A stretch of 33,392 nt of DNA from a virus. Shown one piece after another: positions 1,765-26,625 of this stretch (positions are counted from its first letter, which is position 1; every line of letters starts with the position of its first letter). The notes under the pieces were generated by a model. It saw only the letters and a program-made list of their open reading frames with translations, searched no databases and was not told the origin of the DNA. The position numbers were made by a program, and so were the translations under genes. The stretch is taken from positions 1 to 33,392 of IMG/VR virus record IMGVR_UViG_3300013094_000158. One strand, written 5' to 3'.

Positions 1765-1772
1765 TATTTATC
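1765..1772 (-). promoter_or_regulatory. Late promoter box GATAAATA
   Basis: On the minus strand the 49-bp gap between the sedolisin gene and the 202-aa gene contains GATAAATA, matching the NATAAATA form of the T4 late box TATAAATA. It ends 20 nt before the ATG at 1744, the same geometry as the boxes before gp6 and gp48. T4-type late promoters are read by host RNA polymerase carrying gp55, which is encoded in this window. It should start a transcript for the 202-aa protein and the downstream fibre. Confidence 0.7.
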
Positions 1773-1793: not shown

Positions 1794-3371
1794 TTATGTT
1801 GTTAAAACTTGAGAATCTTGGGCCAAAAGGTTCTGAAGTGTAACTTCAGAGTAAATTGAAAAAACAATCCTGATATTAGCCGGCATAGATGCGCTAAATG
1901 ACGCTGCCAAAATCACTTGGGTACCCGAAAATGTCAAAGTTCCCGAAGTAGCCCCACTTGCAAAATATGTGTTAGCTGTTGAAAGGTTAACTTGACTTGC
2001 TCCATTGAACAATATCATTGCATAATAAATTGTTGAATATGAATTATAATTAGACGTCACTGTATATGTAACAGATGAAGTATGCGAAGGACTTGTTGTA
2101 TTTGGAGCAACAGTGTAAGAAAAACTCACTATTTTTCCAGTATTTCTCAAGTTAATAGTTTTTCTAGGATATACTGACCCGGTTGTGGGGCGAAGTCCAT
2201 AATTATGTTTAGGAAAACTAACTTGTGGTCTGAGTAATGGATATAATTTACTTCCCGTAGGAGGTCCCAGTCCTGTAACACAGTCCCATCCAGATGTACC
2301 TGCATAACCTGAAGTTATAACGTCGTTATTAGTACCAGTAGTTATGTCGTAAAATGCACTAGGATTATTATAAAACAATGTGTTGTATTCGACACTAGAT
2401 CTTTGTATACCAGTAAGTTGTTGAAATCTAGCTAACATACCGGCAATTACAGGAGCTGCCAAACTTGTTCCGCCAAATCCTCCAATGGAACCGTTGAAGT
2501 AACAACCATATACATTCATAGGAGCAGAAATGTCTGGAATTCCTCTAACAGTTAAGTTTGTAGGACTACCAGTTACGCCGTTTGTGATAGGTGTATATTT
2601 AAGTCCTGTTTGATAACTTGGCAAAGTAAACAAGGTACTTAGACCACCACCGCCTCCCCAAGTACTTCCAAAACTGGAATCTCTATTATCATCAGATTCG
2701 GATACTCTATTGTCTAGGGAATTCAACGCAAGTTTTGTGCCGCCAATGGATATTATATAAGGGCTTGAACCTGGGTACCCCACTGATAATGTGCTAGCGC
2801 CACTGTACCAGGCCGATCCATGATCGCCAGAAGCAATGACAATTGCCTGCTTATTAGTGTTTGCAGTTGCTAGTTGCGTTTGTAAAAAATCAGTTGATTC
2901 ATTAGTTGACCAACTGATTGAAATTATATGGCAGCCATCTGCAATGGCTTGATTAATAGGACTTTCCCATGTATTGCCTATATAAATTGTAATATCAGCA
3001 AGCGGAGCCATGGTAGCTGTACAATAAATGTCAACTGTATTTTCTCCACTAGCACCGTCTGCGGCATTAAATGTTCCGCTTGCGCCATCAAATGTTTTCT
3101 TTTTTATTGTGGGAGGTGACATATCAGCTGATATATAACCTGCTACTTGCAAATCTGCAAAAGATCTGTTTAGATCGCTTTGCAAAAAGCCACCACCGCC
3201 TGGGCTTATAATACCAATCTTTACTCCGTATCCAAAACTGCTTGGTAGCCCGTAGGCGTTAGCAATTTGAGGAGGGGTCAAATAAGACCCGTTTACGATA
3301 GATGCTAGTGGCTCTCCTGTGTTAGGATCAATAGCATCAATCTGGACAAGATTAGCTGGTTTAGAGTTCAT
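1794..3371 (-). CDS. Sedolisin-type (S53) serine-carboxyl peptidase
   Basis: The catalytic domain covers about residues 28-380. It shows the sedolisin signature set: E110 and D114 in GENTVDIYCTATMAPLADI, oxyanion Asp D183 in ASGDHGS, and nucleophile S303 in FGGTSLAAP. These residues map to codons at 3042-3044, 3030-3032, 2823-2825 and 2463-2465. The calcium-site segment characteristic of the family follows: YDITTGTN (D342) and SGWDCVTGLGPP (D363). The protein starts almost at the mature end (YLTPPQIANAYGLP), so the usual large N-terminal pro-domain is missing. There is also no signal peptide, so it is not made as a conventional secreted zymogen. About 145 C-terminal residues are Ser/Thr/Tyr-rich beta sequence, perhaps a virion-attachment or binding domain. 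The ATG follows the fibre gene stop by 1 nt with only a weak ribosome site, suggesting coupled translation. S53 enzymes act best at acid pH. The target (host surface, structural precursor or debris) is unknown. Confidence 0.88.
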   Translation of the reverse strand: MNSKPANLVQIDAIDPNTGEPLASIVNGSYLTPPQIANAYGLPSSFGYGVKIGIISPGGGGFLQSDLNRSFADLQVAGYISADMSPPTIKKKTFDGASGTFNAADGASGENTVDIYCTATMAPLADITIYIGNTWESPINQAIADGCHIISISWSTNESTDFLQTQLATANTNKQAIVIASGDHGSAWYSGASTLSVGYPGSSPYIISIGGTKLALNSLDNRVSESDDNRDSSFGSTWGGGGGLSTLFTLPSYQTGLKYTPITNGVTGSPTNLTVRGIPDISAPMNVYGCYFNGSIGGFGGTSLAAPVIAGMLARFQQLTGIQRSSVEYNTLFYNNPSAFYDITTGTNNDVITSGYAGTSGWDCVTGLGPPTGSKLYPLLRPQVSFPKHNYGLRPTTGSVYPRKTINLRNTGKIVSFSYTVAPNTTSPSHTSSVTYTVTSNYNSYSTIYYAMILFNGASQVNLSTANTYFASGATSGTLTFSGTQVILAASFSASMPANIRIVFSIYSEVTLQNLLAQDSQVLTT

Positions 3372-3372
3372 A

Positions 3373-6336
3373 TTATATTTCTAGTTTTAAGATTGTAAGT
3401 GTTACAGTTATATTAGCAGATGATCCACTATTATTATAAACTTTCAAATACATGTTTGAGCTAACTGTTCCATCAGCATTGAATCCAATTGCGGCTGGAG
3501 TAAAATAAGTTGTTGTTGAAACAGTTGAAATTGATTCTGCAATGACTCCACTTCCTGGAGTAGGATCTGTAGTAATAGATCTAGAACTGTCATTAGACTG
3601 TGCTGTTGAACTAGTATAAACAGTTACCCATGCTCCTGCTGAAACTTGAATACTATATAATGCGTAACCTTTAGCGGCTGTAATTGTTCCCGTCACTGAG
3701 TTTCCAGAATTAATAATACCTGTAACATATTGTACAGTAGTTCGACTTTGTAATCCAGATGTTTGAACCGCACTAATCGTACCGCCACTGATTGTAATAG
3801 TTGTTCCGTCTGGTTTTACTGCACCAAGTTGACTTGTTGTTGCGGTAGCTACTGCAATATTTCCATTAGTAGCTATAATAGTTGAACCGTCAACAGTTAC
3901 ACCACCTAATTGGCTAGTTGTAGCTAGAGCAAGGCCAATTGTTCCTGTTGTGTTTGTAATACCACTTGTAGATACTGACGGTATAATAACTCCGCCTAAT
4001 GCTGATGTTGTGGCTGCTGGAAGTGTATAAGAAATTGTACTAGTGATTACACCACCATTAATTGTAATAGTTGTACCATCTACTTTAACACCACCTAATG
4101 TACCACCAGATCCAACACCTGCGGTTGGTAAAGTATAACTAGTGATATCAGACAAATTGGCTAAAGGACTCCAAACAGAATCGTGTGCATAATACATACG
4201 AGCATCTGCATTACTAAAAGCAACTGCACCTTTATAAGAACTTGCCGATGGAAACGCTGTTTGATTTGTAAAATAAAATGGTATAATGCTACCTACAACA
4301 GGGGCAGTAATAACTCCAGTATTGTCTATAGTTACTGCACTATTTTGTAGTGTTTGTCCACCAGTGCCGTTGTATATTGCAATAGCTCTGTTGGTAGATG
4401 CTACTGGGCCAATAACAGTTCCTCCTGATGAAGGCGCACTTATAACACCAGATCCGCTGATTGTAACTGTCGTTCCATCAACTTTGACTCCGCCCAATTG
4501 TGTAGTGCTTGCTATTGCTAGTCCGATAGTACCACTGGAGTTTGTTATTCCGCTAGTAGCCACTGTTGGAATAATAACTCCACCTAATGCTGAAGTTGTG
4601 GCTGCTGGCAAAGAATATCCGCTAGCACTACTAATTACACCGCTTCCACTAATTGTAATAGTTGTACCATCAACTTTAACACCGCCCAATGTTCCTCCGC
4701 TACCTACTCCAGCTGTTGGTAAGCTATACGGTGCTGGAGGTGTAAATGAAAACACTCCGGTAGAATTGTTATAAGATAAACTGCCATTGCCGCTAGCTGT
4801 TTGAGTAGTTATACTAAGACTACTCAATTGAATTGGTGTGAATCCTAGTCCAGTTGTAATTTGATTGCTGGATAAAGTATTGCCGCTGATACTAGTTACT
4901 GTACCAGCATTTCCAGTGACGCTACCGTTAATTGGATTTGTTACTGTCAAATTAGTTAAAGTTCCAACACTGGTTAAACTAGAATTAACAATGTTTGAAT
5001 TCAAAGTTGTACCAGTCAGCAATCCTGCGGCTGCCACAGTCGATCCTGGAATTTGTTGCCAGGTAGTTCCGTTATAAATTACATAATCACCGGCACTAAA
5101 TGTAATGCCTAAAGCTGTACCTCCAACGGTAACAGCATATTCCCAACCAGCAGTACCAGAACCGTTGGTTAATGTTGGAGTATTGGTACTGGCATTCCAA
5201 GTACCTTTATAAACAACTGCTCCTGTTAAACTTGCAGGTATCTGACTAGCTGTCAATCTTCCGTCCGGTCCTAATGTTGCTATTCCACTAGCGGCACCAA
5301 TTGTACTGATTGCCGGAACTGAAATAATTCCTCCTGATATTGAAACGGTTGAACCATCTCCTTTAACAACTCCTAATACGCTTGAAGTAGCAGTTGGCAA
5401 TGACGCAATATAATCAACGCCCGGAACTGCAATACTCAATGCACCCGTCGATGTAGTACTCTTAAGTAAACCCGTAGCCAAACCGCTAGTGCCAGGTGCA
5501 TAATCTGTACCGCTTACTGCGGCTGTTCGAGTAGTGCCCGAAGACTTAACAATACCTGTTACACTTTGCGCACTTTGATAATCTGTTCCAGCAACAGCCG
5601 CAGACATACTAGTACCGTTGCCTTTTAATATGCCGTTTATGTTAGTAATTATTGTAATAGCAGGAGTTGTGGTGCTATTGGCAACAGTTCCTGCAAAACC
5701 ATTTGCTGTAACAACACTTATCGATGATACTGTTCCAGATCCTGCAATAGCAGTAATAACTCCATTATTAATAACAATCGAAGTTCCGTCAACTTTGACA
5801 CCACCTAGTGTTCCTAAAGTGCTAGTTCCAACAGTAGCCGTTGGTATAACACTACTAATAACTCCATTATTAATAACTATTGAAGACCCATCAATCTTAA
5901 CACCACCCAATGCGGTTGTTGTTGCTGTTGGTAAGCTATAACCGCTAGGTGCCGCACTGATCACACCGCCATTTATTGTAATAGTTGTACCGTCAACTTT
6001 GACACCGCCTAATACTGAAGAACTTGCTACCGGCAAACTATATGCGGCTGGAGCTCCAACTAATTTATTATAACTTAATGCTGTAATCCAACTTGGATCT
6101 GAATAATTTCCTGTTGTCAGCACCGCATTTGTTGTTGTATTAGGCGCCCAAAATAATTGAAATCCATCTGTATACAAGGCATTTCCAGCTTGTCCAACCT
6201 TACTTGGCAACACTGATGCCGCGACATTTGTGTATAATTCTGTAAAATTGGCATTTATCTTTTGCCCGGCTGTACGTAGACTGTCACCAGTGCCATCGCC
6301 TGGGGCTGATCCTACGTTAATAAGTTGTTGTGTCAT
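3373..6336 (-). CDS. Repeat-rich tail fibre protein, 987 aa
   Basis: The N-terminus carries INVGSAPGDGTGDSLRTAG followed by KINANFTELY (residues 6-34), an attachment motif typical of fibre proteins in marine T4-like phages. Residues about 105-856 are a shaft of at least nine units of the form LGGVKVDGTTITINGGVISA, plus two variants (LGGVIIP...SGTIGLA). Three units of a second type end in GTDYQ, GTDYA or GVDYI. Other segments are VYKGTWNASTNTPTL to VIYNGTTWQQIPG and KGAVAFSNADARMYYAHDS. The last ~125 residues form a distinct beta-rich tip ending in NITVTLTILKLEI. The ATG overlaps the giant gene's stop by 4 nt (ATGA) and has AAGGA about 10 nt upstream. The product is probably a trimeric fibre contacting the host. 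It is co-transcribed with the sedolisin gene that follows. Confidence 0.85.
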   Translation of the reverse strand: MTQQLINVGSAPGDGTGDSLRTAGQKINANFTELYTNVAASVLPSKVGQAGNALYTDGFQLFWAPNTTTNAVLTTGNYSDPSWITALSYNKLVGAPAAYSLPVASSSVLGGVKVDGTTITINGGVISAAPSGYSLPTATTTALGGVKIDGSSIVINNGVISSVIPTATVGTSTLGTLGGVKVDGTSIVINNGVITAIAGSGTVSSISVVTANGFAGTVANSTTTPAITIITNINGILKGNGTSMSAAVAGTDYQSAQSVTGIVKSSGTTRTAAVSGTDYAPGTSGLATGLLKSTTSTGALSIAVPGVDYIASLPTATSSVLGVVKGDGSTVSISGGIISVPAISTIGAASGIATLGPDGRLTASQIPASLTGAVVYKGTWNASTNTPTLTNGSGTAGWEYAVTVGGTALGITFSAGDYVIYNGTTWQQIPGSTVAAAGLLTGTTLNSNIVNSSLTSVGTLTNLTVTNPINGSVTGNAGTVTSISGNTLSSNQITTGLGFTPIQLSSLSITTQTASGNGSLSYNNSTGVFSFTPPAPYSLPTAGVGSGGTLGGVKVDGTTITISGSGVISSASGYSLPAATTSALGGVIIPTVATSGITNSSGTIGLAIASTTQLGGVKVDGTTVTISGSGVISAPSSGGTVIGPVASTNRAIAIYNGTGGQTLQNSAVTIDNTGVITAPVVGSIIPFYFTNQTAFPSASSYKGAVAFSNADARMYYAHDSVWSPLANLSDITSYTLPTAGVGSGGTLGGVKVDGTTITINGGVITSTISYTLPAATTSALGGVIIPSVSTSGITNTTGTIGLALATTSQLGGVTVDGSTIIATNGNIAVATATTSQLGAVKPDGTTITISGGTISAVQTSGLQSRTTVQYVTGIINSGNSVTGTITAAKGYALYSIQVSAGAWVTVYTSSTAQSNDSSRSITTDPTPGSGVIAESISTVSTTTYFTPAAIGFNADGTVSSNMYLKVYNNSGSSANITVTLTILKLEI
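3770..6030 (-). repeat. Degenerate repeats encoding the fibre shaft
   Basis: At least nine imperfect in-frame units of roughly 60-80 bp encode the GGVKVDGTTI-type shaft motif, with two longer variant units and linkers between them. Stretches such as those around 3990-4120 and 4570-4700 repeat in the same order (LGGVIIP unit next to a GSGGTLGGVKVDG unit), suggesting duplication of a multi-unit block. Such arrays can expand, contract and recombine. Confidence 0.75.
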
Positions 6337-9300
6337 TGTGTTGTTCCTTGATCGAATGTTGTGCGAGTACCGTCAAAACTTAATAGTGTGTTGTCAAAAG
6401 TTCCCACCGATACATTACTTATTTGTTTATACTCACTATACCATATGCCAGGTTCTGCTCTTAAGAAATCGCTTATTTTTCCAGTGTCATAAAGCACACT
6501 TGTTACATTATCCCAAGCCAATCCTGAATTTTGTACTACTGTAATTTGTGTTCCAAAACTTAATAAATTAGTCAATATTACAGTTGCTCCATTAATTATA
6601 AAAGTTAAAGAAGCAGTTCCATTTGAGGCTGTTCCCAATGTGTGATTAGGACCTGTAGTTCCTAGAACTCCGGCCACAGTAACTTCATAATAATTATTTT
6701 CATAATTTACATAAACACCTATTGCAACTGCTAAACCAGATGCCCATGTTGGTCCATAATATTTCACTGCTGGTATAGTAAAATCTGGACTAAATGCAAC
6801 ATCTCCTTCTGGGCTAGTTGGGGCGTTGTTTATATTAAAGACACTATATCCAACTTTCTTCAAGCGTCTATTTCCAATAAAGAATTTCCAAGCACTGCTT
6901 GATGCAATATTAGTTGCAATAGAAGTAGTAGTTCCATCACTGTTAATTGTAACTTGGGTAACAGAACTAAAGAATGTGCTTCCACTAATATGGCTAATTA
7001 AACATCTATAGGTGTAAGATCCCACATTAACTATAGCACCTACAGGATAAACTGCGCCAGTTTCCCATACTGATCCGTCGTTGTATCCTCCTACAAAAAT
7101 TTCCATATCGTTAATAGTAGCTGGTACAAAATCTAAACTAACTAGATTTGTACCGTCACTAACAATTTGTGTGACTTTTTGTGTATCACTATATGGAATA
7201 TTTTCAAAAGGTCCAATATCCTGGACTAGTGTACCTGCTAAGGATACTGAATAAATTCCTGTACCAAGAGTCCCTCGACGCAATTGACTTAACTGATTAC
7301 CTACTAGCGAGAAGTACTCAATACGCTCACCTCTAATTTCAATAACTCCTGGTTTATTTTTACTTGGATTTGGTAAGTCAAAATTAGAAGCATTTTCAAC
7401 TACAATCACAGTGTCATTCCAGTGTAAATCTTGTGCCAATGTAGTTTGTTTAGATTTACTTAGACGTTTATAGGTCACACGATTTAACATATCTTTGAAC
7501 TGCATATATGCGATTCCAGATGTATATACATTGCTACCAAAAGTAATTATGGTTAACTTGTCAGTAATAGATGTATTTTGTGCTAATGTTATACTTTGAT
7601 AATCTGGATTTAATTTATAATCAATCACAGGACTTAATAGAGTTCCATTTTTAATAACCCAAACGTAGTATTCACTTAATACTTGTCGGTCAAGCTGGAC
7701 GATTCCTCCAAGAATATTATACATGTAAAAATAAAAAGAACTATTTGGTGTAAGAGATGCTAATGTAGAAGTAGATAAGGTAGTTCTTTGTGAATCTAAA
7801 AATTCATGTTGATAACTACTTATAACTTGTACCAAATGTGTGTTGTCATATGCTGTGTTAAATGTAATCTGATTATTCAGTGCATTATATGTGTAGCCTT
7901 CTCCGGTAGTTAGACTCACAACCAAAGTTTGACCTTTATATGTGTTATAGGTAGTTTTATTAATTTTAATTGTAACACCTGACAGATCAACAATATAATC
8001 TGTTCCTAGTGTTAATGTATTACTTCCCGCATAGACATACAAAGTTCTAATGTCAATCGAATATGGAACAAATTTGGTAGGATCAACTGTATAATTAAGT
8101 CTGTTGCTACCTATTGTAAAATATGCATTTACTGGAGCAGGTAAAATAGACTGATCGACACGCACTATCATGTCTGATTCGTCTGGTAAGAATGTTCCAA
8201 CAGGATTTTGCAAATTATAGGTAAATTGTCCGTTAGTTGCTATTGTTTCAACATTAGTTATAGCATAAGTCGGCACCGTACCAGCAACTATAATAAAATT
8301 AATTAATGCACCGGCAGCAGGAGCTTTTCCAAAATTAAATCCAATTGCTCCAGAATACAAATATGTCTTATCAGTCTTAAATATCTGAGGGCTAGCAACT
8401 TTACCATCAACATATACTAAAGTTGTGATAGGAGTTGTCCAAGTTGCACTTGATACAAATTCAGATGTTGTTCCATCGCCAACAAAGTAATCAATATCTA
8501 TAATGTTTGCGCCATTGAATCCAATACTAAAAATACTAATTTCTGAATTAGAAGTAGGAGCAGTATGGAAAACAATATTATTATTTCTATAATCAACATC
8601 ATAATCAGTTGTCACAGTTTTTATCGCACCACCTACTTTTACTATTACAGCACCTGGACTGTTTGGTTGTTGACTTATTTTGAAACCAGTAGTAGCTCCA
8701 TCCCCAATATAATTGTCAGTTCTTATAACTCCCGATCCGCTAGTTGGTTTTTCAAATATTTTAATAGCTAACGCATCAACTAACTGTCCTGGAACAACTT
8801 CTTCGGGAGCCACATTCGTAGTAGTTGTAATAAGACCGTCGCCATCGACGATAATGTCATCTGCTGATAAACCAGTAGCTGTGGCATAAACACCATTTAA
8901 TGTGGTAGTATCACCGCCACTTAAACTAGTATCATAATCCTGATCTCTTGGCGCTATCGAACCATCGCTGGTAGTTTGTCTAATAACAAATTCGTCACCT
9001 TTAGATACAGTAAACACATTAGCCGATGCATTTGATCCAGCATCTACTTTGTCAAGTATTCCATATACTGTACTTGCAGATCCTCCGTCATCTACCTCAA
9101 TATCTATAGTTGTATTGGCTTGACCGCCGTCAACTAGTGTATAAGGTTGCGGAATGCTAAATGTTTTAGTTGTTAAACCACCAACATCGCTAACACCATC
9201 AGATAAGAAAGTGTTTACAATAGCAGTTGCATTTATTGAAGGTATTAATGTAGATTCGTTTGATAAGATTGTACTTAATACAGTTTGCAGACCTGCATCT

Positions 9301-12300
9301 TGAGCCGGTGCTGTAGGATTAGTTACTGGTGCATTTGGATAAAATGCACTGCTTATAATTGTTGTAATTGTTGATATATTATTACTAATAGCAGTTCCTG
9401 CTATTTGACCGTTAGCCAGGCCGCTATTTGTATATTGGAAAAAGTGTGTTTGTAATCTTGTAAATTGAGTATTGGTAATAATATGCTGAGCCATAGAATT
9501 CAAATATCCAAAAACACCTGACCAATAGGCAGGGGGTTGAATGAATGGAATACTATTATTGTAAATCCAATACTGATTTGCTGAATAGATAGATTCTCTA
9601 TTGCCGCCGTAGGTTAAATCGTAACATAGACTCAACACGATATATTGAATTTTTGTTTGGAAATCTGTTTGATCATATACTACACTTGGATAATTGTTAG
9701 TAATATATTGTATTAATTCTGCTTGAATAAACGGAATATTATCATTCAACAAAGTAGCCGCACTATAAAGTCCGTAATTAGGAGAAATAAAAGTATAATT
9801 CCCGTATTCTGCTTGTAGTCCAATACTTTGATTAATTTGTGCCGCAACTAGGCCATTATGTAGTACTACTGCTACGACTGTTGCAAATCCTGTTAGCCCA
9901 AGACCACTCACTGACCACCCTGCTTGCACTGGCGTAGCACTAATAGATGCTACTGGAATGTATACATAGGTTCCTATCGGTGATCCGTTTATATTTGGTA
10001 CATTATAAACTATAGATGTAGGAGTACCATACGGCAATGTAAATATTGGTTGAGGAACAATTCCACCGCCAACAATAGTTGTTACTATTGCTGTGTTTGT
10101 ATCAATTGCCAAGACTGCTTCTGCATTAGTACCCACTCCTTGTAGATTAGATACTGTTTCAAGTAAATTATTAATTGAATAATTTGTTTCACTAGATTTA
10201 TATCCGTAAGAAGTAATGTGGTTTGATATTGCAAGTCCTACCAAAATACTTTGATAGTTTGAATTATACGCGGCATCATAAGCTGCCGATTCTACTAGTT
10301 GAGCAAAGAAAGGTTTTATATTATAATTAGGATCATCTAATCTAACAGGATTTAATTTTCCAAGAATACTAATTATAGAACCCAGCGCTATTCCGCTATT
10401 TGTTAAATTTGTTAACGTAATTTTTCCATTGTTACTAATAACTACATCAGTTGGTTGAATTAGTGTACGAACAAAATTTAAGTAAGTGCTATCTGGTATT
10501 TCAAAATAAAGTATAGAACTTAGTTGTACTTGATTTGCAGATAAGCCCAACGTAGAATTTGGACCTACTGCTGTAACTGTAGTATTCAATGCAAACAATG
10601 ATAACGATGTATCTGTAGTTGTTATAACATCACCTACTCTTATTCCAGTCACGCTATTAACATACAAAATGTTGCTAGCAACCACGTTAGTTGTAAAAAT
10701 AATGATTCCGCTAGGAAGACTATCGGGCGGAACACTTAATTGTACCTGAGTTGATGATAGTATTGCTGTTACGGTTTGCCCCGATACAAATCCTTCTCCA
10801 GTTGCAGTCATACCCACCGTTATATTTGCAGTGCTTACTAGAGTAATAGTGTTTACATAAGATCCTGCAACAGACGCAACAGATGCAAATGTAGCACGAA
10901 CACCGCTAGAGTAAGTTGTATGAGTCAATGTAACATATGGTGCAATATCTTGAGTATTATAAACATATTCTTTAGTAACACCATCTGATACATATGAATC
11001 TACATTAACCTGTGTTCTATAAATGTTTAGTTGTATACCATTATCTGGAGTGTACGGTAATGTAAATGTATTAGTGTTAGCATTTACAACAACACTATAA
11101 TCTTTATATGTGCTGTCATAACTATCCCACTTATCTGAATAAAATGGTACACTATCCCAACCCTGAGAAATTTCAAATCCTAATCCGTTAACAATAACAC
11201 CGCCATAATCTATACCAGTCATTAACTGTGCAAGATCTTTTCCTGGTTCACCTGCACTTGGTGTATAATAATACTGTATTCTATCTGTAGCACTTAACAA
11301 AGATTCTGCAATATTATATGTAACAACTATTGATACTCCTTTTTTAGGAGCAGTTGTAAATGTTATTGTTCCAGAATATGTGGTATACCCCTTAACAGTA
11401 CTTGAAACAATAGCAAGTGTATAAGTATCTCTTAATGCAAGAATACCATTAAGTGTAACAGAACTTTTACCTATAGTGTTATCTGGTCCCCATTGTAAAA
11501 CAAATTGTAATCTACTACCAGTTCCAGTAAATGTTTCAGTTTTTTCTAATTGTGTAATAACGTATGTTTGATCTACTCTGTCAAATTTAATTCCAACATA
11601 ATTAGATCTAACAAGGCTTTTTCCAATAATTGCTACCGCAGTTGCTGGTGTTCCAGTAGGCAGTATTCCACCTTTAATTGTAATCGTTGGTGCCGATAAG
11701 TAACCAGTTCCCGGAGTTAATAGCACTATTCTATTGACTTTTTCATTACTAATAAATGCTCTAGCTGTTGCTCCGGATCCGCTGTTGCTTGTAAAAATAA
11801 CCTGAGGTTCAGTTACATACCCGCTGCCGCCGCTAGTTAATTTTAATTCTGTAATTGTAAATCCTGCATTATCAAGCCAGAACTTCCAAGGATATGTTTC
11901 TATAGCAGGATCTTGGGCGATGATTTTATCATTTTGAGAATAAACTTGTATCAAAGTTCTCTTATTATTTTCGTAAATAGAAGGTAAATCAAAATCTGTT
12001 ATAGGCAATTGGGCAGGATCAATGCTGTCATAATTGCTAATGTATTCCCTGACAGTAGTTTTATAAGGTTTAACTTCGTTGACATAATCTTCAAAATTAG
12101 CAAGATTATCTGGTTTGTAAGTCACAGGCTGATCTAGACCGCCGACATTGTGTTGGGCTCTTACAAAACTAGTCTTAAATATCCAATCAACATAAAGTTG
12201 TTCGCTATGAATATAATGTACACTACCAAAGAATAAATCTAAATAAGAACCGTTTAGTTCTCCTTTGAAAATATCATTTTTTAGACTAGACAGTATAATT

Positions 12301-15300
12301 CTCAATTCAGTTGATGCATATAGGTCAAAAGATTGAGAGTCATATATGTTATTATCAAAACCTAATTGAGTATTCGATAAATTGTAAAGAGAAGCATCCA
12401 GCTGAATGGTGCCATTTTGTAAGCCAACTACATGATAACTCTGTGTCCAATCTATGCTTGTAGAATCCGCATACTTATATAATAGTTCCCAACCGCCTGT
12501 GTTAGTGGTTCTAACTTTAACTGTTTGTCCTATAATAGGAGAAATTGAATTTAAGTCCGCCAGTGTGGCAACTGAAAAATCAGCGGCTGTAAATTGACTG
12601 TAACCAGTTGCATACCAGTCTGCATAACTCCAATAATTTCTAACATCATATGCTTGAGTTAAGACTAATGACCAATATCCAACTGTAGTCTTTCCTACTG
12701 ATGTTACTGGAGGTATCCATGCATATATACTCCAATTTCCATTAGCGTTAACATCGCTTCTAATTAATGCACTGTAATTTCTAATGGTTAATGTAGTTGT
12801 ACTATCATAACCTTGTCCTGATGATATTACTTTAGCTCCGGTAATCTGACCTTTTGTATTAATAATTGCATTTACTACAGCCCCAGTACCGGTACCATTA
12901 ACTGTAATATAAGGAGCAACAAGATATCCTTTTCCTGATAAAGGATTACCAGTACTATCAGTATTAATAGTTATTCCAGTAATCCTGCCATCCGAAATTG
13001 TTGGGTTAATACTTGGTGTTGTATAATTACCTACACTAGCATAAATTAATTCTGCATAATTATCAAAAGCAATATCATACAACCCCGTAGTAATTGCAGG
13101 TGCTGGATCATAACTTTCTAAATTTTTAAGATCTGAATTTTCTACTATCTGATTTGCTAACAATATCTGATTAGCTTGTTCTACAAATTCTTTTAATGCT
13201 TCAAAACGATTAACAAACATACCCTGGCGAGGTCGATTTTCAATACCATAACGTAACTTAGGAGGCAATGCCGGATCGGGCACTGGTCGACCTACTGAAT
13301 CATTTCCACATAAACTGTCAATCCATTTTTGTTCAATTACATCAGGAATATATGTTGTAGGGTCTTCGCTAACTAATTTCCAATGACTATGTACATTCTG
13401 ATTTGTTTTAGAACCTAACCAGTACTCAACACTTAATACAACTTCGTCATGCTTTAAGTATTGTTTTGCATTAACTAGACTAAAACTACTTGGGCCAGTT
13501 AATGCAAGATATGTATAACCCTGCCCTCTTGGATTAGCAATTAAAGTAGAAACATCGCTAGCTGCCAAGTTTCTTCCGGCAACATTAGGAATGAATTTTT
13601 TGTTTTTAACCCAGAAATAATAGGTATTCTTAAATGTTTGAGTTACAGTATTATAAGTTTGTTTTACACTATAACAACTATTGCCATATAAACTAGTTCC
13701 ACTTATTCCGGCCGTAATACCAGCTGGTGTGTCTGCTAGAGAATCCCATACTGCTGGCAATTGGTTATAACTTACCCATTCGTAAATATCAATACTTGCA
13801 CCGGTTGCTAGCGAATTCCAATTTGTATTTTTATAAACAGGGTTATCTTCATATGCATTTAAGAATTTTGCGGTTCTTAAATCCCACCATAATAAGCCTA
13901 CTTGATCATCTTTCCATGCAGTGCCAGTATTGACATTAACTGTAGTATCTCCTACACTATAAGTAGCTGGATCATAAAATGCTTTGAATTTAATTTCTTC
14001 TTCTGCTGGCCCAGCAATTTTGCCCTGTGCAGGATCAATAATATCTAAGTATGTTACTAATGTTCCTAAAGTTCTATTATACAAGAACGCTTTTTTAATT
14101 TTCTTAACGTCTGGTTTATCAATTTCGCTGTGTATGATAGTCCAAGTCTTTGTGCCTGGCATCTTACTATAATCATATACTCGACCAGAAGTTAATCCAT
14201 GATCTATACCAAATGGTGCACCAATTAATACGTGATTGCCCCCTACTGCAAATCCAGTACCATATCCGTCAGCTACTCCACCTTCATTAGTAATTATTGC
14301 GGCAATACCTGTACCTGAACCGTCACCTGTTGCAGTAAATGTAACACCAATAGCATTAACACTAGCACCAACTTTTGTAAAATCTGTAGTGCCTAAACTT
14401 AATATTGAATATGTATTACCAACAACAAATTCTCCTGCTGGGGTAACTGGATTAGACCTGGTTAAACTTTCACTAAACACCCAACTAGTATCATAACGAT
14501 CATAGATATCAATGCGACCACTATTAATTTGTCGTACAGTAAATGGTGTAGAATTTTTATCAAATGTTGTAGAATTTTTATCAAATGTTGTAGTTATAAA
14601 CGTATCGCCATACTGACTATAAATTACTAATGTTTCAAAGTTATTCATGAAAGAAATTTTACGGCCAAAATGTCCGTTAGTTTCTGGTTGATGAGGAACT
14701 AATGTCTGTTGTATAAAATATAATCCAGAATCAGTATGATAATTATATACTGCTACAGAACCTTGTTGTTTAATTTGTGTTGAACTTGTAGTATCATCTG
14801 AAATAGCAATATAATTGCCATCATCTGATATTGCCAATTGTATATCATAATCAACACCTTGTAATATTTGTACTAGTCCAAAACCAGTTAAACTATTTCC
14901 AGAAATAGTACCTGCCTGTGTTTGCGGGCCAGTAGCGTGGCTAGCATAACTAACACTATTCAATGTAACAGCAGTTACAACAAATGCGCCGTTAAATGAC
15001 GATGGTACAACACCAGAGACTGTAATTGTATCGCCTAATGCATAGGGCAATAGTGTTTGTTTAGCAAACGTCAATGTTGCCGTTGTGCCGGTTCCAGTAG
15101 CACCTGTAGTCGTCAATACAACTGTTGGTGTAGCTTTGAATATTGCCACTAAAGCAGTTGTAACACTACTTGCGGCACTAATTGCTAATGTAGAATTATC
15201 ATTACTTATGGCTAGACTATAACCAAAATTCATTCCGGTTATATTACCAGTATACACCTCGGCTTGATCATAGCCCCAACCAACAACTGCAAATTCAATT

Positions 15301-18300
15301 ACTCCGTTTGGAGTGCTATCTGGGCTGCCACTTAAAATTAATGTTGTAAAATTAACTACACTAGTAACTGTCTGTCCGCTTGTGAATCCAGTACCTAGCA
15401 CATACATGCCTGGAAGTATGCCGATTGTACTAGTTACTCGCAATGTTGCTTCTGCACTTCCTACAGGATTATATGCAGACTGAGCTTGTACTACTGAAGA
15501 ATATTTTAATTTATATACTCTACCAGATGAATTATTATATCCCGGAGCTGATATATAAATTACATCATTACCAAATGCAAAATTTGATCCAAAATTTTCA
15601 TTAGCAACAGGATAAGGACTTACAATAGTATCTACTAAAGCGTAGATATTATTTGAATCTTTCTTATATAGACTTATTACACCTTGTCGTGCATATCCAG
15701 TTTGAGCATACTGGAATGACCATTGGCCGCTGCCGCTATCAGGTGTAGAAGGAGCCTGCTGAGTAGCAGACATGATTCCACTTGCAGTCGTTAACGGCAC
15801 TGCCAAGTTACTTCCTTGTATAGCTGTTATTGTAAATTGTGTACTACTAATAATTGTTTGTACATAATAAATGACTCCAGCTACTGCTCCTCCAAATGTA
15901 TTTCCAGAAAAAATAATTTCATAACCAACGCCTAATACGCTAGTATCTGCTGTGGTCAAATAATATGTAGAGGCTGCGGTATTAGTTACTGTAATTGTTA
16001 CTTGCCCATAAATTTTAATAATAGATTGATAAACATTACTCTTATAGATAACCAAGCATCCCGAAGGATAAATTACAGTTGGATCCCAGGTTCCATAACT
16101 ATCGACTGGAATATAATATATTGTTTCCCAGTAGCCGTATACATCATATAATGGCTCATTATTTGCTGGTACAACTTTAAGTGCTCGATAAAAGTTAGTA
16201 AATCCAGTATCTAAATCTACTTCACTTACAATGAGTCCTGGGCCATATACTAAAACTTGATTCCAATTACCAATATAATTTGTAATTGCATAACCTGCCA
16301 ATGGACTGCCAGTTATCATGTACGATGCATCGGGTGCGATTGCAACTGCTGTAGCAACAACATTTCCTTGATTTGGATTAGTTGTTATTATATAAGTAGC
16401 AGTTGTTATAGATGCATTTGCTGGCTGGCTAATTGTGACACTAACTCCTTGAATTACTGAAATTATAATTGAATTTGGAGAAATGCCTTGACCTTCTATA
16501 ACTCCGTTTAACATTCCAGAGGCTGCCGCAGACATTGTAACTACAGTACTATTGATTATAGTGCTTGCAATAACATTATAAACTGTATTGGTAGAAATAA
16601 AAGGAGGTTCAATGATTTGTCGTTGTACCCATGGCAAGGCCGGACTAGATTTATCATAAGTGGTGATTTGCCCATAACCTGTGCCTATGGCAGCCATGTT
16701 ACCTTCTCTGTTGATTGCAATAACAGCACCAAACTCTAACTCATTTTGTGGAGCAGAATTATTCAAATAAGAAATTTCATATACTGGGTTGTATTGCCAA
16801 GTAGCCCATTTGCCGTTACCCTGATCATCGGTCCAAATTAGTTCTCCTGGATTTAGACGAACTGTGAGAATAGAATCTAATGAGTTAATACTAGATGTTC
16901 GTTGACTTACCAGTGCATACACTACCAATTGGTTTGATTGTGTAAATGGTTGAGGAAACCCAGAAATAGTAGCAGAAATTGTAAACGAATTTAAGTTTAC
17001 ACTGGTAATTTGATAAAATCCTTGCAACAACGCTACTTGAGAAAGCCCGACCCAATCACCTACTTGGAATGAGGTTAAATTTTCAGTAGTTAATGTTAGT
17101 GTAAAGTTATTATTGTTATAAGAAACGTTATTAATTATAATTTGTAAGTCGGTGAATCTGTAGACATTCCAACTTGGACCATCAAATGCCACCCATACAT
17201 AGGCACCTTCATTAAATGTAGTGATATCATAAGAAGATATTTCTGACAAGTATCCTAAACTTAAGAATACATCTGTGGCATTAACATATCCTGCTTCTCT
17301 TAAGAAAGAATTATACACTGGTAGTAGAGGCCAGGGTTGACTATTATAACCTAAAGGTTTTAGATAAACATCATTATATGTTTGTTCAATAATAAATGTT
17401 TCACTAAGACTTGTGTCTTTTAATTGTCTTAGTTCAAATCCCTGAGGATTAGATCTAAAATTTGCTTCGTTGAGTATAAACTCTATATTTTCAAACGCTT
17501 TAGCGGCACCGTATTGTCCCAATCGTAATGCCCATTCTTCATAAAATACCAAACTCTCTAAGTTATCAGAACTTAGTACATTAAACAATTTATTAAGACT
17601 ATTTTGTGTACCTTTTTCACGAATCATTCCTTGATAAAACTTAAATTCTGTAACATCGTCTTGTAAGATGTTATCTAGGTATTGACGTTTTTGATAACCA
17701 ATTAAATGCTGTGCAACTTTTTGTTGATTATTATCAAAATTATCACTGTCTAAGCTATAAAAATCTTCAAACTGACTTGCCTTGTAAGACCAATTAGGTA
17801 ATAGTTTTGCTGTAGGTTTTGTTGCCAGTTGAGTCCACTGTGTAGCATCAAAGGTTTCTGTACCAATCAATGCCGACAATGCGCTATAATAAAATCCTTG
17901 ATAATTAACAATATCGCCTAATGCATAATCTGTCCATGCTTTCCAATTTTGTATAATTGCTTGGTCAAAAATAAATCCTGGAATGTCTAATCCGCCATAC
18001 CAATCGATACTAACATGTCCAGAAACTTTAAGTCTTTCTTGTCTATAACCACTTTCTGGGTTATAAATTACATCATTAAAAATTGTTGTATTACTTAAAG
18101 TAATAACTTGTTCATGTTGGATTAGATAAAAACTTGCACCATATATTCCATCAGTTGTTCGAGGACTATAAGATACTATATTTCCACTTCTGTAGCTATC
18201 TAAAAATTTTGAAGCCAGTGGAGTTCCATCAACCTTGAAAATTTCATAGTGATAGAATGGATTTGTTATATCATCGACTACAGCTAAATTAGTTGTAAAA

Positions 18301-21300
18301 GTTAATTTACTTGCAGATGGACTTAGACTTATAACACTATTACCTACATTGCTTATTCCAGGCAACATTTGATATTTTGCCTTATCAAAAGAATCAGTAG
18401 CTGAAAGATTATATAAAGCACTGTAATAATCTCCGTTATATCTTACAATAGTACCATAAGTTACCGGAGCATTTGGCATCCAATCTTTCCATTGACTAGA
18501 ATCAGGAGTCCAGTTTTGAGTAGTCCAGAATAAAAATTCTTTAGCACTAGTTTCCCAATTTGTAACTAGGCCTAAGTTAACGTTAAAGCTGTCAAAAGTA
18601 AATCCTTCGTCTTGAAGATATCTGCCGTACCCTAGTAAGAAATCTACAACTTCTTGTTTAGTTTGAAATTCAGTACCGTAAGGAACAACAATAGGTTTAG
18701 TTCTGTCCCAACCAGTTCTAATAACAGCACTAGCTCCACCTACTACCGGTAAATGACCTAAGGGAGTAAAAATATTTGAATCAAACGCAGTACCTGCAAC
18801 AGTGGTAGATAATGTTCTGTAGTAAGAATTTACATATTTTACAATAGTACCAGTTACGTATGTTTCTCCTGGCGTCCAAGTTACATAAGGTGCGCTAATA
18901 CCACCAATGACTGTTGTAGGACCAGATTTAACATAAGGATAATAGGTAAAATATGGTTGAGTTTGACTGTAGCCTTTTACTTCATACCCGTCGGGCATCT
19001 TTGTAATAATAACACCACTATAAACTATTTTCCTAATTGGGCTTGAACTATTTAGAAATACATTAAAATTTTCTGCAGGAACAAATACGTTACCAGTACT
19101 TGCAGGAGTTTTAGAATCTAATAATAAATTCATCTGCTCTTTACTAGTAAATGCGCCAATTCTATAAGATATCTGTGCTGTCATTGTAGCAAGATCAGTT
19201 ATATATTGCTTGTAAGATTGTACATTATTACTAAAAATAAAATTTAAGATTTGATCTACAATATAGTTTACAATACCTGCGGTTTGTACTCTAGTAGTAC
19301 TAGAATAAATGCTTGGTAATAAAATATCTGCTGGAGATATTCTTAAATTAGTTTTTGTATAAACTAATTGTCCTGCTAAATTTCTTGCTATTCTAGATCT
19401 GTCTAACAAAATGTTTATAGTTTTAGCAGGTGTTAATAATATACTAGCAATAACAACTGCAAATGGGTAATGACTGCTACGACGCCATGCTGTTTCAACT
19501 GGACTTTGATCTCCGAATACAAATCCGTTTCCTGTATTTTGTGTTATAGTGCCGTTAGCAAGGCCAGACGCTATAGGATTTATTAATAATCCATTGCTAT
19601 CCACTGGGATATGCTTCATTAAAAAGGGTTTAGCATACTTAGACAATTTAATTGTAGGCATTCCTGGCTCTCTGACCATGCCATCATTAATATCTTGCCA
19701 CATTGGTAGATTGTCACCGGTATAAGGTGCTGGTCCGTATAACTCTACCCACCAACTTGGTTGTTGACTAAATCCTAACATTTCCCAAGGACATAAATTT
19801 GGACGATCGGTGTCTAATAAATATTGGAATATGCCTCTCCAATATCCTGGAAGTTGTCTGCCGTCGGGTGCATAGTTATCCGAATAATTATAACTAAACG
19901 GATTGTTTATATCATAACTAAGAGGTTTTGTAAAATCTCTTCCTGATAGTTTAGTCCACTTGTAAAAATTAGGAGCTAATACTTGATTAAATTCTGCAAG
20001 ACTGTAATCATTAGATCTGTTATAACTAGGAATAATGTCAGCTACATCAAAAATTGTAGGATCGTACTGAACTTTAATATTATTAAAAATACGTTTTTCT
20101 AATTCTAATAACAGCTGATCTCGGTAATCTCCATAGGCAAGTATTTTACTACCATCGTGACCTTGAATCATAGTTTGCGGAGTAGCATAGGTATTGTCTA
20201 CATAAATTTGTGGAACATAGGCTGGCCACATTCCATATTTTGTAGGTGTAGCTGGAACAAAACTACCATCAGTGCTGTCATATTCTACTGTTGTGATAGT
20301 GTCTCCATTATTCATTACTACGCTATTGGTAATAGTAAAATATCCTTGATTGTCAAATGTATAATCTCTACCATGTACTAATTGACTGTTATTCAAGTAA
20401 ATACCAACAGCTTTATTGGATAAAGTAGTTAATGTGAATACTGAACTTAATGGATATTGTTTTATTCTATAATCAACTACTGAAAGATTTGTTTTAACAG
20501 ATGCTCCGTACGGAATCATATCACTAAAATAATAAGGAGCAGTATTAGGACGATCCTTGTTTATTTTTTGCATTATTAAATCTACAAGTGTAACTGGATC
20601 TCCGTCAACGCCCAAACTAGTAGCTGTCTTAACAAAATTTCTTTTGAAATTATTATAGTCATCTCGACTTTGTTCAATTGAACGTATAATATTATTTGTT
20701 TCTGAAGTAATATGATATATTGTAGTGCTTAACGGACCACTGTGCTGTACAAATTTTGTTCCGTATTGTGTAACATTGCCTAAATCTCTTAAATTTCCAT
20801 CCCCTGGAAATGATCCAACAAATGTTGTTCCAAGATTATCAACAATTGAATTTACATGATCTGCAACTTCACCTAATGTAAAATCTCCCATGATGTTATT
20901 CAAAGGATTATTTTGCAGATTAATTGGAATTTCGTAGTAGCCTTTACTATTAATTATTTGTGAGGCAAATGCACGGATTGTTAAAACATCACTTTTAGAT
21001 ATCGGATTAACCAATGTAATAAATTTGTAGTTAGGTCCTGAATTTAATTGCCACAATGTTGGGCTTAATCTAATTCCGTTTACATAAATTTTAACCACAA
21101 GATCTGATAAGTTTGTGATATCGTCAAAAATATCTAAATTAAATTTTGTTGTTAGCCCAGAATTTTTGTAAATTCTAACGGCAGCTTGCGTATTAGGTGC
21201 AGAACATGTTTGCCAGCCATTTTTATAAGTTAACCCACCAGCATAAGTTTGTTTTACTAGATATCCTACATTAATATTTTTTGTAATTAGTGATGTAGAT

Positions 21301-26100: not shown

Positions 26101-26625
26101 ATCTATAGGAGTTCCAAATTGGTTAGTCGGTAATAAGGCGGCATTTAAGATTTTTATAAATTGATCATACCAATTAGGATTACTACTATCGTTCCATGTA
26201 ATGTACTGTCCTGCTAAATTTATACCATTACTGTCCAGTACTGTTTCTGTAGTGCTAATAGTATTAACTTTTAATAACCCTTGAGCTGGTACATTTCTAC
26301 TAGCATTGTACCCAATCATTCTTGAAAGTCGTAATACACTTTCACGACGTTCTGCTAGTTCTAAAAAGTTTTCTCGGGCGTTAAGATCCACTCGGAAAGC
26401 TATACTTTGACCTACAAAAGCTATGAGATCAATAAGAGCAAGGTATTCGCTGGATTCAATGTAATCATTGAAATCTTCTGGAAAATTCACACGGATATAA
26501 TCAATCATTGTACGGCGCAAATTTTCAAAGTCGTAACTTTGAAAATCAGCATTTTTGAATGATTGATAGATTTTTTGCCAGTCTTCGTTTACTAATAAAT
26601 TGTTTAGTCTATCCGTCGAGCTCAT
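23158..26625 (-). CDS. 6: Baseplate wedge subunit gp6-like, 1155 aa
   Basis: The first 110 residues are characteristic of T4-like gp6: DFENLRRTMIDYIRVNFPED, then YLALIDLIAFVGQSIAFRVD and ENFLELAERRESVLRLSRMI. gp6 forms the inner baseplate ring that holds the wedges together and rearranges on sheath contraction. The C-terminal ~200 residues (HPVSYILLFGALADTNLQAS to DNWNFGDTFYFSELSTYVMM) look like the conserved J-type end. T4 gp6 is about 660 residues, so this version carries roughly 500 extra residues, mostly Ser/Thr/Asn-rich beta sequence in the middle. The ATG has AGGA about 7 nt upstream and lies 18 nt after a late box. The gene's last 8 nt overlap the start of the giant gene. The family call is firm; the extra domain is not recognised. 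Confidence 0.9.
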   Translation of the reverse strand: MSSTDRLNNLLVNEDWQKIYQSFKNADFQSYDFENLRRTMIDYIRVNFPEDFNDYIESSEYLALIDLIAFVGQSIAFRVDLNARENFLELAERRESVLRLSRMIGYNASRNVPAQGLLKVNTISTTETVLDSNGINLAGQYITWNDSSNPNWYDQFIKILNAALLPTNQFGTPIDQANIYGISTGQYRFNGANTNVPTYSFTKTVAGRSMNFEITSTTFSGKSYIYEEPPKIANNIACVYRDDGYGAGSANTGFFFNFTQGTLNQGTFTVTQPSANETIDVNTQNINNTDVWLYSIDQSTGLENTLWTQVPALTGNNIIYNSLNNKIKTIYNVITRAGDAISLGFADGVFGNLPLGNFRVYYRTSNNLSYTINPSDIINVLITIPYVSTQNNFETLTLSLGLASTVNNSAATETNASIKANAPQTYYTQNRMVTGEDYNISPLSVTQKVAKVKSINRTSSGISRYFDLKDPTGKYSSTNLFADDGIIYQEPYVSPINFSYLTKTDIEGIIYNTIFPILDTPDLRNFYYANFINYITESLNISWYNITSDSNSCTGYVGSSSDGVPYKLASFTSTDLKYFTTGALIKFVAPSGYYFDTTNNNMLVKGTATNLGSVNYLWSQVVSITGDGTGVSSTGILSTKFGSVTLNKVIPTNAVISQIIPELNVTIQSSIVTSMIDLIFYNKPFGLRYDAGTQSWQIIFETNLNTTSSFSLGNQGDSTNTQQDSSWLLLFTTNNEYYTVSTRLLRYVFESDQEVTFYFDGTQKVYDIVSSSTILDRLNVLSINTQPDSTSPFTTDMAWQIIKEYTGQDGYIDPTKIVVSFADSENNGIVDNPQLFLDIVAPNTNSLNKYILQQKYFISEGQEDYKYVSNDNNLVIILSTQGNVGVLTQYTDGQYFYFVDKQVVKKYNASTSTLNPTLDFKVYVGRDKLKFQYIHNADFESRIDPGASNIMDIYVLTTDYDTKFRQWLSGANIAEPLPPSSGELDNLLGADLDLIKSISDQIIYHPVSYILLFGALADTNLQASFNVVKNPSSTLSNNDITARIITAFNTFFALDNWNFGDTFYFSELSTYVMMQLAPDITNFVIVPVQGNQFFGSLFEIQCPSDRIFISCATAANINIVPGLTSDNLKTVTGQSLSTLTSSQNITSATFGVTNG

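Follow-up and report, generated by a model that had tools for sequence, protein, structure and literature searches.

A complete sedolisin in the tail operon of a phage raises the question of what such an enzyme might do there. The gene in question, at 1794-3371, was analysed within the first 33,392 nucleotides of IMG/VR record IMGVR_UViG_3300013094_000158 (the window), where a first-pass annotation had claimed a complete S53 protease. This claim is borne out by phmmer, by fold comparison and by residue conservation. Against PDB sequences, phmmer matches kumamolisin (E 4.6e-31) across residues 31-385, with further matches to sedolisin (1.7e-14) and TPP1 (1.5e-11). An AlphaFold2 model, for which 26 sequences of the window and of IMG/VR were used, has a core mostly above pLDDT 90, with no confident model of the C-terminus from residue 402. 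The core aligns with pro-kumamolisin 1t1e (Z 48.3, rmsd 2.8, 351 aa) and kumamolisin-As 1sio (Z 46.2, rmsd 2.1), and subtilisins reach only about Z 26, well below the 46-48 of the sedolisins. Homology search and structural model, both of them proposed at the outset as checks, thus return a sedolisin.

The hallmark residues E110, D114, D183 and S303 and the DIT...GWD calcium site all lie where they had been placed, and the calcium-site aspartates D342 and D363 are, like the catalytic residues (Table 1), invariant in 19/19 aligned phage S53s, which reach down to about 36-40% identity. The only Pfam match is to Peptidase_S8 PF00082, which has the same fold, and covers residues 136-319. Membership of S8 was rejected on the active-site sequence and the fold ranking: the active-site helix reads GENTVDI (E110/D114) where subtilisins show HGTHVAG, and the Asp-His-Ser triad is not found. 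The protein combines S53 homology, Ser-Glu-Asp with the oxyanion Asp, GTSxxxP, the calcium aspartates and the sedolisin fold. Comparison with the sedolisins of loci L011 and L013 gives a dN/dS of about 0.11-0.14, a rough figure with dS >1, and most pairs of relatives fall at 0.03-0.17 (one near-identical pair, 0.20), several again rough with dS >1; the window gene is under strong purifying selection. On this evidence we take it to be a new S53 member in an unusual place.

Table 1. Features of the fibre and sedolisin genes in the window.
Feature	Coordinates	Strand	Remarks
Fibre gene, 987 aa	3373..6336	-	Stop codon one base ahead of sedolisin ATG
Fibre N-terminal motif, phrog_958 baseplate wedge subunit	6220..6330	-	E 1.1e-7
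Fibre C-terminal beta-sandwich, phrog_15343, proposed protease-docking domain	3373..3753	-	E 2e-52
S53 sedolisin gene, short pro-domain-less phage type	1794..3371	-	525 aa, ATG start
N-terminal 30 residues ahead of first conserved S53 block	3282..3371	-	No Pro-kuma_activ match
S53 catalytic core, residues 31-383	2223..3281	-	phmmer, AlphaFold2, fold match
Catalytic E110 codon	3042..3044	-	Invariant in 19 aligned phage S53s
Catalytic D114 codon	3030..3032	-	Invariant in 19 aligned phage S53s
Oxyanion-hole D183 codon	2823..2825	-	Invariant in 19 aligned phage S53s
Nucleophile S303 codon (GGTSLAAP)	2463..2465	-	Invariant in 19 aligned phage S53s
Tail motif, residues 385-409 (VSFPKHNYGLRPTTGSVYPRKTINL), proposed docking tag	2145..2219	-	Common to slot phage S8s
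116-residue extra domain, residues 410-525, this copy only	1797..2144	-	No Pfam/phage match, low model confidence
Late-promoter-like GATAAATA	1765..1772	-	Between sedolisin and next gene, 21 bases before next gene

Neighbouring window proteins include gp25-like, gp6-like and gp5-like baseplate or tail proteins and a late sigma factor. Judged by gp6 and a 202-aa neighbour (phrog_11259), two jumbo phages, Phosso and Atu_ph07, come closest among cultured relatives, with further matches to Salicola phage SCTP-2 and the RaK2 group. Phosso and Atu_ph07 keep the order of gp6, giant protein and phrog_11259 but have no fibre-sedolisin pair, which has thus been inserted into a conserved operon. The giant structural protein of the window (6333-23165) has 5610 aa, compared with about 4450-4560 aa in its Atu_ph07 and Phosso homologues. 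The sedolisin had been described as lying between a fibre gene and a late promoter. Both do adjoin it, with the qualification that the promoter-like GATAAATA is 3' of the sedolisin and fronts the next gene; the sedolisin would be the last gene of its transcription unit. Similar AATAAATA sites precede the genes starting at 26625 and 32402, and the late-promoter motif shows no enrichment across the window (148 matches with one mismatch, 142 expected).

The fibre N-terminus is probably the point of baseplate attachment. The C-terminal domain of the fibre, of ~125 residues, is common to Synechococcus phages and is modelled as a confident beta sandwich. Comparison with PDB folds gives nothing above Z 7.9, that is, a generic viral beta sandwich, and the good BFVD matches are phage proteins of the same family.

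Two IMG/VR surveys were made with this domain, the second headed by the S-RSM4 cyanophage domain, and yielded 80 and 79 loci; each represents the best 80 of at least 576 confirmed candidates, with query alignments drawn from protease-adjacent domains, and is not a census. The next gene is a protease at 69/80 loci in the first survey (39 S53 and 30 S8; two more loci end at a contig edge), and an S8-type ORF at 79/79 in the second, a few being shortened by contig ends. Among the 202 fibre-domain ORFs in the fetched loci, 177 have a protease next (102/114 when non-redundant), and in 141 of these 177 pairs the two genes are separated by exactly one base. The pairing extends across well over a hundred other phage sequences, and the window itself has phrog_15343 directly upstream, the one-base gap and a [YFW]PR tail past the core. 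Scans of IMG/VR with the window sedolisin gave 29 loci, in most of which it starts one base past a fibre ORF with the same ending. The suggestion that homologues might be sought beside fibres in other T4-like phages is answered by many such phages with a sedolisin next to a fibre. The fibre domain is likewise paired with a protease in the cultured cyanophages S-H9-1, ACG-2014h, S-CREM1, S-RSM4 and S-H38. In Synechococcus phages, the gene after the fibre domain is annotated as a subtilisin-like protease, a peptidase or hypothetical, and a Peptidase_S8 domain is present in each of the four that were tested. A tblastn search with the whole window protein against 50,697 phage records gave no match; the S53 relatives seen are therefore all uncultured IMG/VR contigs.

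A divergent subfamily of the fibre domain, in which most members end IGE or IGDN and many lie on the same contigs, precedes a different structural protein and serves as an internal control. Examples are the paralogous domains of L127:2-2964, L100 and L005:489-4269 (LEV in L005), which are followed by a structural protein of ~780 aa ending ARTT. A few loci have the fibre domain without a protease. Contigs L081, L082, L084 and L085 share the jumbo-phage layout with the fibre and no protease, the giant protein being seen in L082, and represent a natural protease-less state. The sedolisin frame is broken in L033 and L046, contigs that otherwise resemble L032 and L045, which reflects either an assembly error or a decaying gene.

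Most S53 relatives are 407-411 aa long and end shortly past a motif resembling FPKxNYGFRPxTGxTYPRKTTGxR. The C-terminal domain of ~145 residues in the first-pass annotation is a composite: residues 386-409 are a separate conserved tail, and the extension proper has 116 residues (410-525), missing from every aligned relative and without a match in Pfam or among phage proteins. Nor is there support for the proposal that this domain anchors the enzyme, as all other short relatives in the slot end at the tail and have the same fibre partner without the domain. The tail lies after the catalytic core in both S53 and S8 slot proteases, with the common form R..(S/T)G..(Y/F/W)PR. [YFW]PR is found past the core in 118/120 non-redundant full-length proteases, many of which have a preceding R and then S/T-G. 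In its strict form, the tail falls within the last 45 aa of 47/114 proteases compared with 1/666 other ORFs (Fisher p 1.5e-42, a value that ignores relatedness and concerns a form chosen after some sequences had been seen). Among S8s of the second survey, [YFW]PR occurs past residue 430 in 65/65, compared with 7/399 other ORFs (last 250 residues), and the tail is found in 0/82 bacterial and archaeal S53s. It was also looked for and not found in P-SSM2_297, S-SCSM1_144, S-T4_070 and the L037 S53; the gene upstream of the tail-less P-SSM2, S-SCSM1 and L037 proteases, when tested, lacks the fibre domain. Since the tail spans two peptidase families yet keeps to one fibre domain, its likeliest role is that of a docking tag, although it could instead be a processing or folding signal.

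Several variations on this arrangement were noted. A further domain lies behind the tail in 46 S8s and in the window S53, as in the cyanophage S8s L005:5389-7395 and L006:5389-8313; that of L006 resembles cupredoxins (PF00127) at E 0.0014, below the cut-off. L161:2564-3316 is a 250-aa non-protease ORF with the same terminal tail (VRPSSGQQYPRGNRGN) and no Pfam match, possibly another cargo for the same dock. In L028:7971-12212 and L029, the sedolisin is fused to ~1000 more residues (1413 aa); the gene directly upstream has no fibre domain, and the tail is weak (SLIFPRKTI). The P-SSM2 and S-T4 S8s (L276:3722-5557 and L278:3389-5155) have another common C-terminal stretch, RRIxFNPFxNxxxxSIxGxxF, located in P-SSM2 behind a different fibre-region protein, and this is perhaps a second docking pair.

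The N-terminus is the other unusual feature. The protein had been said to lack both pro-domain and signal peptide, and we agree: a Pfam search of the window protein for Pro-kuma_activ (PF09286) finds none, and residues 1-30 contain no visible hydrophobic signal stretch. The related statement that it starts where a mature sedolisin would start is correct as to the missing pro-domain, but ~30 residues precede the first conserved block, and these correspond to the part of 1t1e immediately ahead of the mature enzyme. Long phage S53s in the fibre slot (such as L038, L057 and L088) keep PF09286 (E 5e-10 to 7e-17), and three N-terminal states occupy the same slot: S8 with a weakly inhibitor I9-like region (E 0.006-0.06, below the cut-off), S53 with Pro-kuma_activ and S53 without it. 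Bacterial genomes scanned with a two-sequence S53 alignment gave no match, and a broader S53 alignment gave 79 loci, at best 33-34% identical. Many of the nearest bacterial S53s are in acid-loving groups, mostly with long N-terminal extensions. Ktedonobacteria have S53 lipoproteins (L216-L221, L225 and L229) with N-termini too short for a pro-domain, and to call ordinary S53 enzymes secreted zymogens, as had been done, is too strong; the loss of the pro-domain is therefore unusual and not unique. Sedolisins are silent at cytoplasmic pH, which is a possible reason for its loss. Phage S53 cores are lower in charge than the phage S8s (K+R 4% and D+E 7% of the core, compared with 5.6% and 10%), which is only suggestive of proteolysis at acid pH.

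The two families appear to alternate behind the fibre. On a fibre-domain tree of 114 domains and 126 columns, in which many forks are unresolved, the labels S53, S8 and none need 14 changes. The S53 label alone needs 8, at least 3 of them forced by starred branches, and one starred set (95) mixes two S53 and two S8 rows. The protease behind the fibre has probably been replaced several times. A tentative and rather doubtful extension is that one fibre domain and a short tail form a lock and key for two enzyme families between which the environment chooses: acidic fresh waters would favour the acid-active S53 and the sea the neutral-active S8, and S53 could drop its pro-domain because it depends on acid and the neutral cytoplasm silences it. 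An acid habitat favouring S53 is a lead only; several S53-contig sample numbers look like those of bog-lake samples, and a literature search by sample number gave no match.

A genuine sedolisin tightly linked to a fibre gene is therefore probably a virion-associated protease. The scenario that we favour, with somewhat better than even confidence, is that a working sedolisin is the cargo of a two-gene fibre-protease module, carried by the virion at the fibre tip and cutting host surface proteins. The fibre N-terminus would hold the fibre to the baseplate, and the protease from the next reading frame would dock on the fibre beta-sandwich through tail residues 385-409 and ride on the virion. During adsorption it would cut proteins on or around the host surface, candidates being outer-membrane or S-layer proteins, pili and sheath, and the slot would be refilled repeatedly by S53 or S8 enzymes. 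A host surface protein as substrate is the most economical guess. The best support for a virion location is indirect and comes by analogy from S-SCSM1 gp144, a fibre-adjacent S8 protein carrying a 'virion protein' flag in its record, whose meaning we infer, and having neither fibre domain upstream nor tail. Mass spectrometry of S-SCSM1 virions identified 45 proteins (PMC9602691).

The sedolisin may instead be an assembly or maturation protease that acts inside the infected cell on a structural precursor, be it the fibre, the 5610-residue neighbour or some other, and is dispensable in the mature particle. Its position as last gene of a late tail operon, after the giant protein and the fibre, its lack of a secretion signal and the common use of maturation proteases by phages are all consistent with this. 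We nonetheless regard it as unlikely: the four protease-less contigs have the fibre and, as seen in L082, the giant protein, Atu_ph07 and Phosso keep the giant protein without the pair, and the module adjoins unrelated neighbours in other phages. Moreover, the cytoplasm lacks the acidity that S53 enzymes usually need, and the fibre C-terminus is conserved up to its last residues, which would be unexpected in a domain that is cut away. Trimming of the giant protein had been offered as a role for the enzyme and, as its main role, is set aside on the same contigs and neighbours. Overall, the earlier interpretation stands as to the sedolisin, the absent pro-domain and the link to the fibre, and is unsupported as to the C-terminal anchor and giant-protein trimming as the main role.

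A one-base spacing fits plain translational coupling equally well, and the enzyme could be a late cytoplasmic or lysis-stage protease, coupled to the fibre by transcription only, that is freed at burst and then targets host proteins or debris. This seems improbable, since coupling alone leaves unexplained why so many phages pair the protease with one particular fibre domain, and why the tail follows this domain across two families. Least probable is that the protein is an enzymatically silent structural protein or adhesin whose sedolisin fold is kept for receptor binding; some phage adhesins do reuse enzyme folds, but none of the tested catalytic and calcium residues varies among the aligned phage S53s, even the most distant, and most of the second-survey S8s that are its swap partners keep GTSMASP.

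Known systems offer partial parallels to the fibre-borne sedolisin that we favour. Kumamolisin and kumamolisin-As (MEROPS S53) share the core fold, the E-D-S residues with the oxyanion Asp and the calcium aspartates, whereas the window protein, at 31-32% identity, lacks the pro-domain, has the conserved tail and the 116-residue extension and is encoded in a phage tail operon. The long phage S53s share its slot, tail and catalytic residues and differ in their ~130-residue PF09286 activation domain. The cyanophage subtilisin-like proteases T4-GC_292/phrog_9158 (S-H9-1, S-RSM4, S-CREM1 and ACG-2014h) occupy the same slot after the same fibre domain, with the [YFW]PR tail in those checked and, in several, an extra C-terminal domain past it, but belong to S8 and have a weakly I9-like N-terminal region. 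Tailspike and tail-fibre depolymerases resemble the proposed role, in that a fibre enzyme clears a path to the host surface. Those enzymes act on polysaccharide and usually lie within the fibre polypeptide, whereas the window enzyme is a protease and a separate protein.

A search of the open literature found no description of S53 in phages, of S53 with tails or of S8 with fibres, and, judging by that literature, a module in which interchangeable proteases share a tail and a fibre partner is undescribed. The usual view of phage fibres is that they bind or cut sugars. If the scenario is correct and fibre-docked proteases are widespread, many aquatic phages, marine cyanophages among them, would attack proteins during entry, and a family of hypothetical genes next to fibres would gain a function. 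The short tag, able to load either enzyme family on the fibre tip, would then be a simple natural display system.
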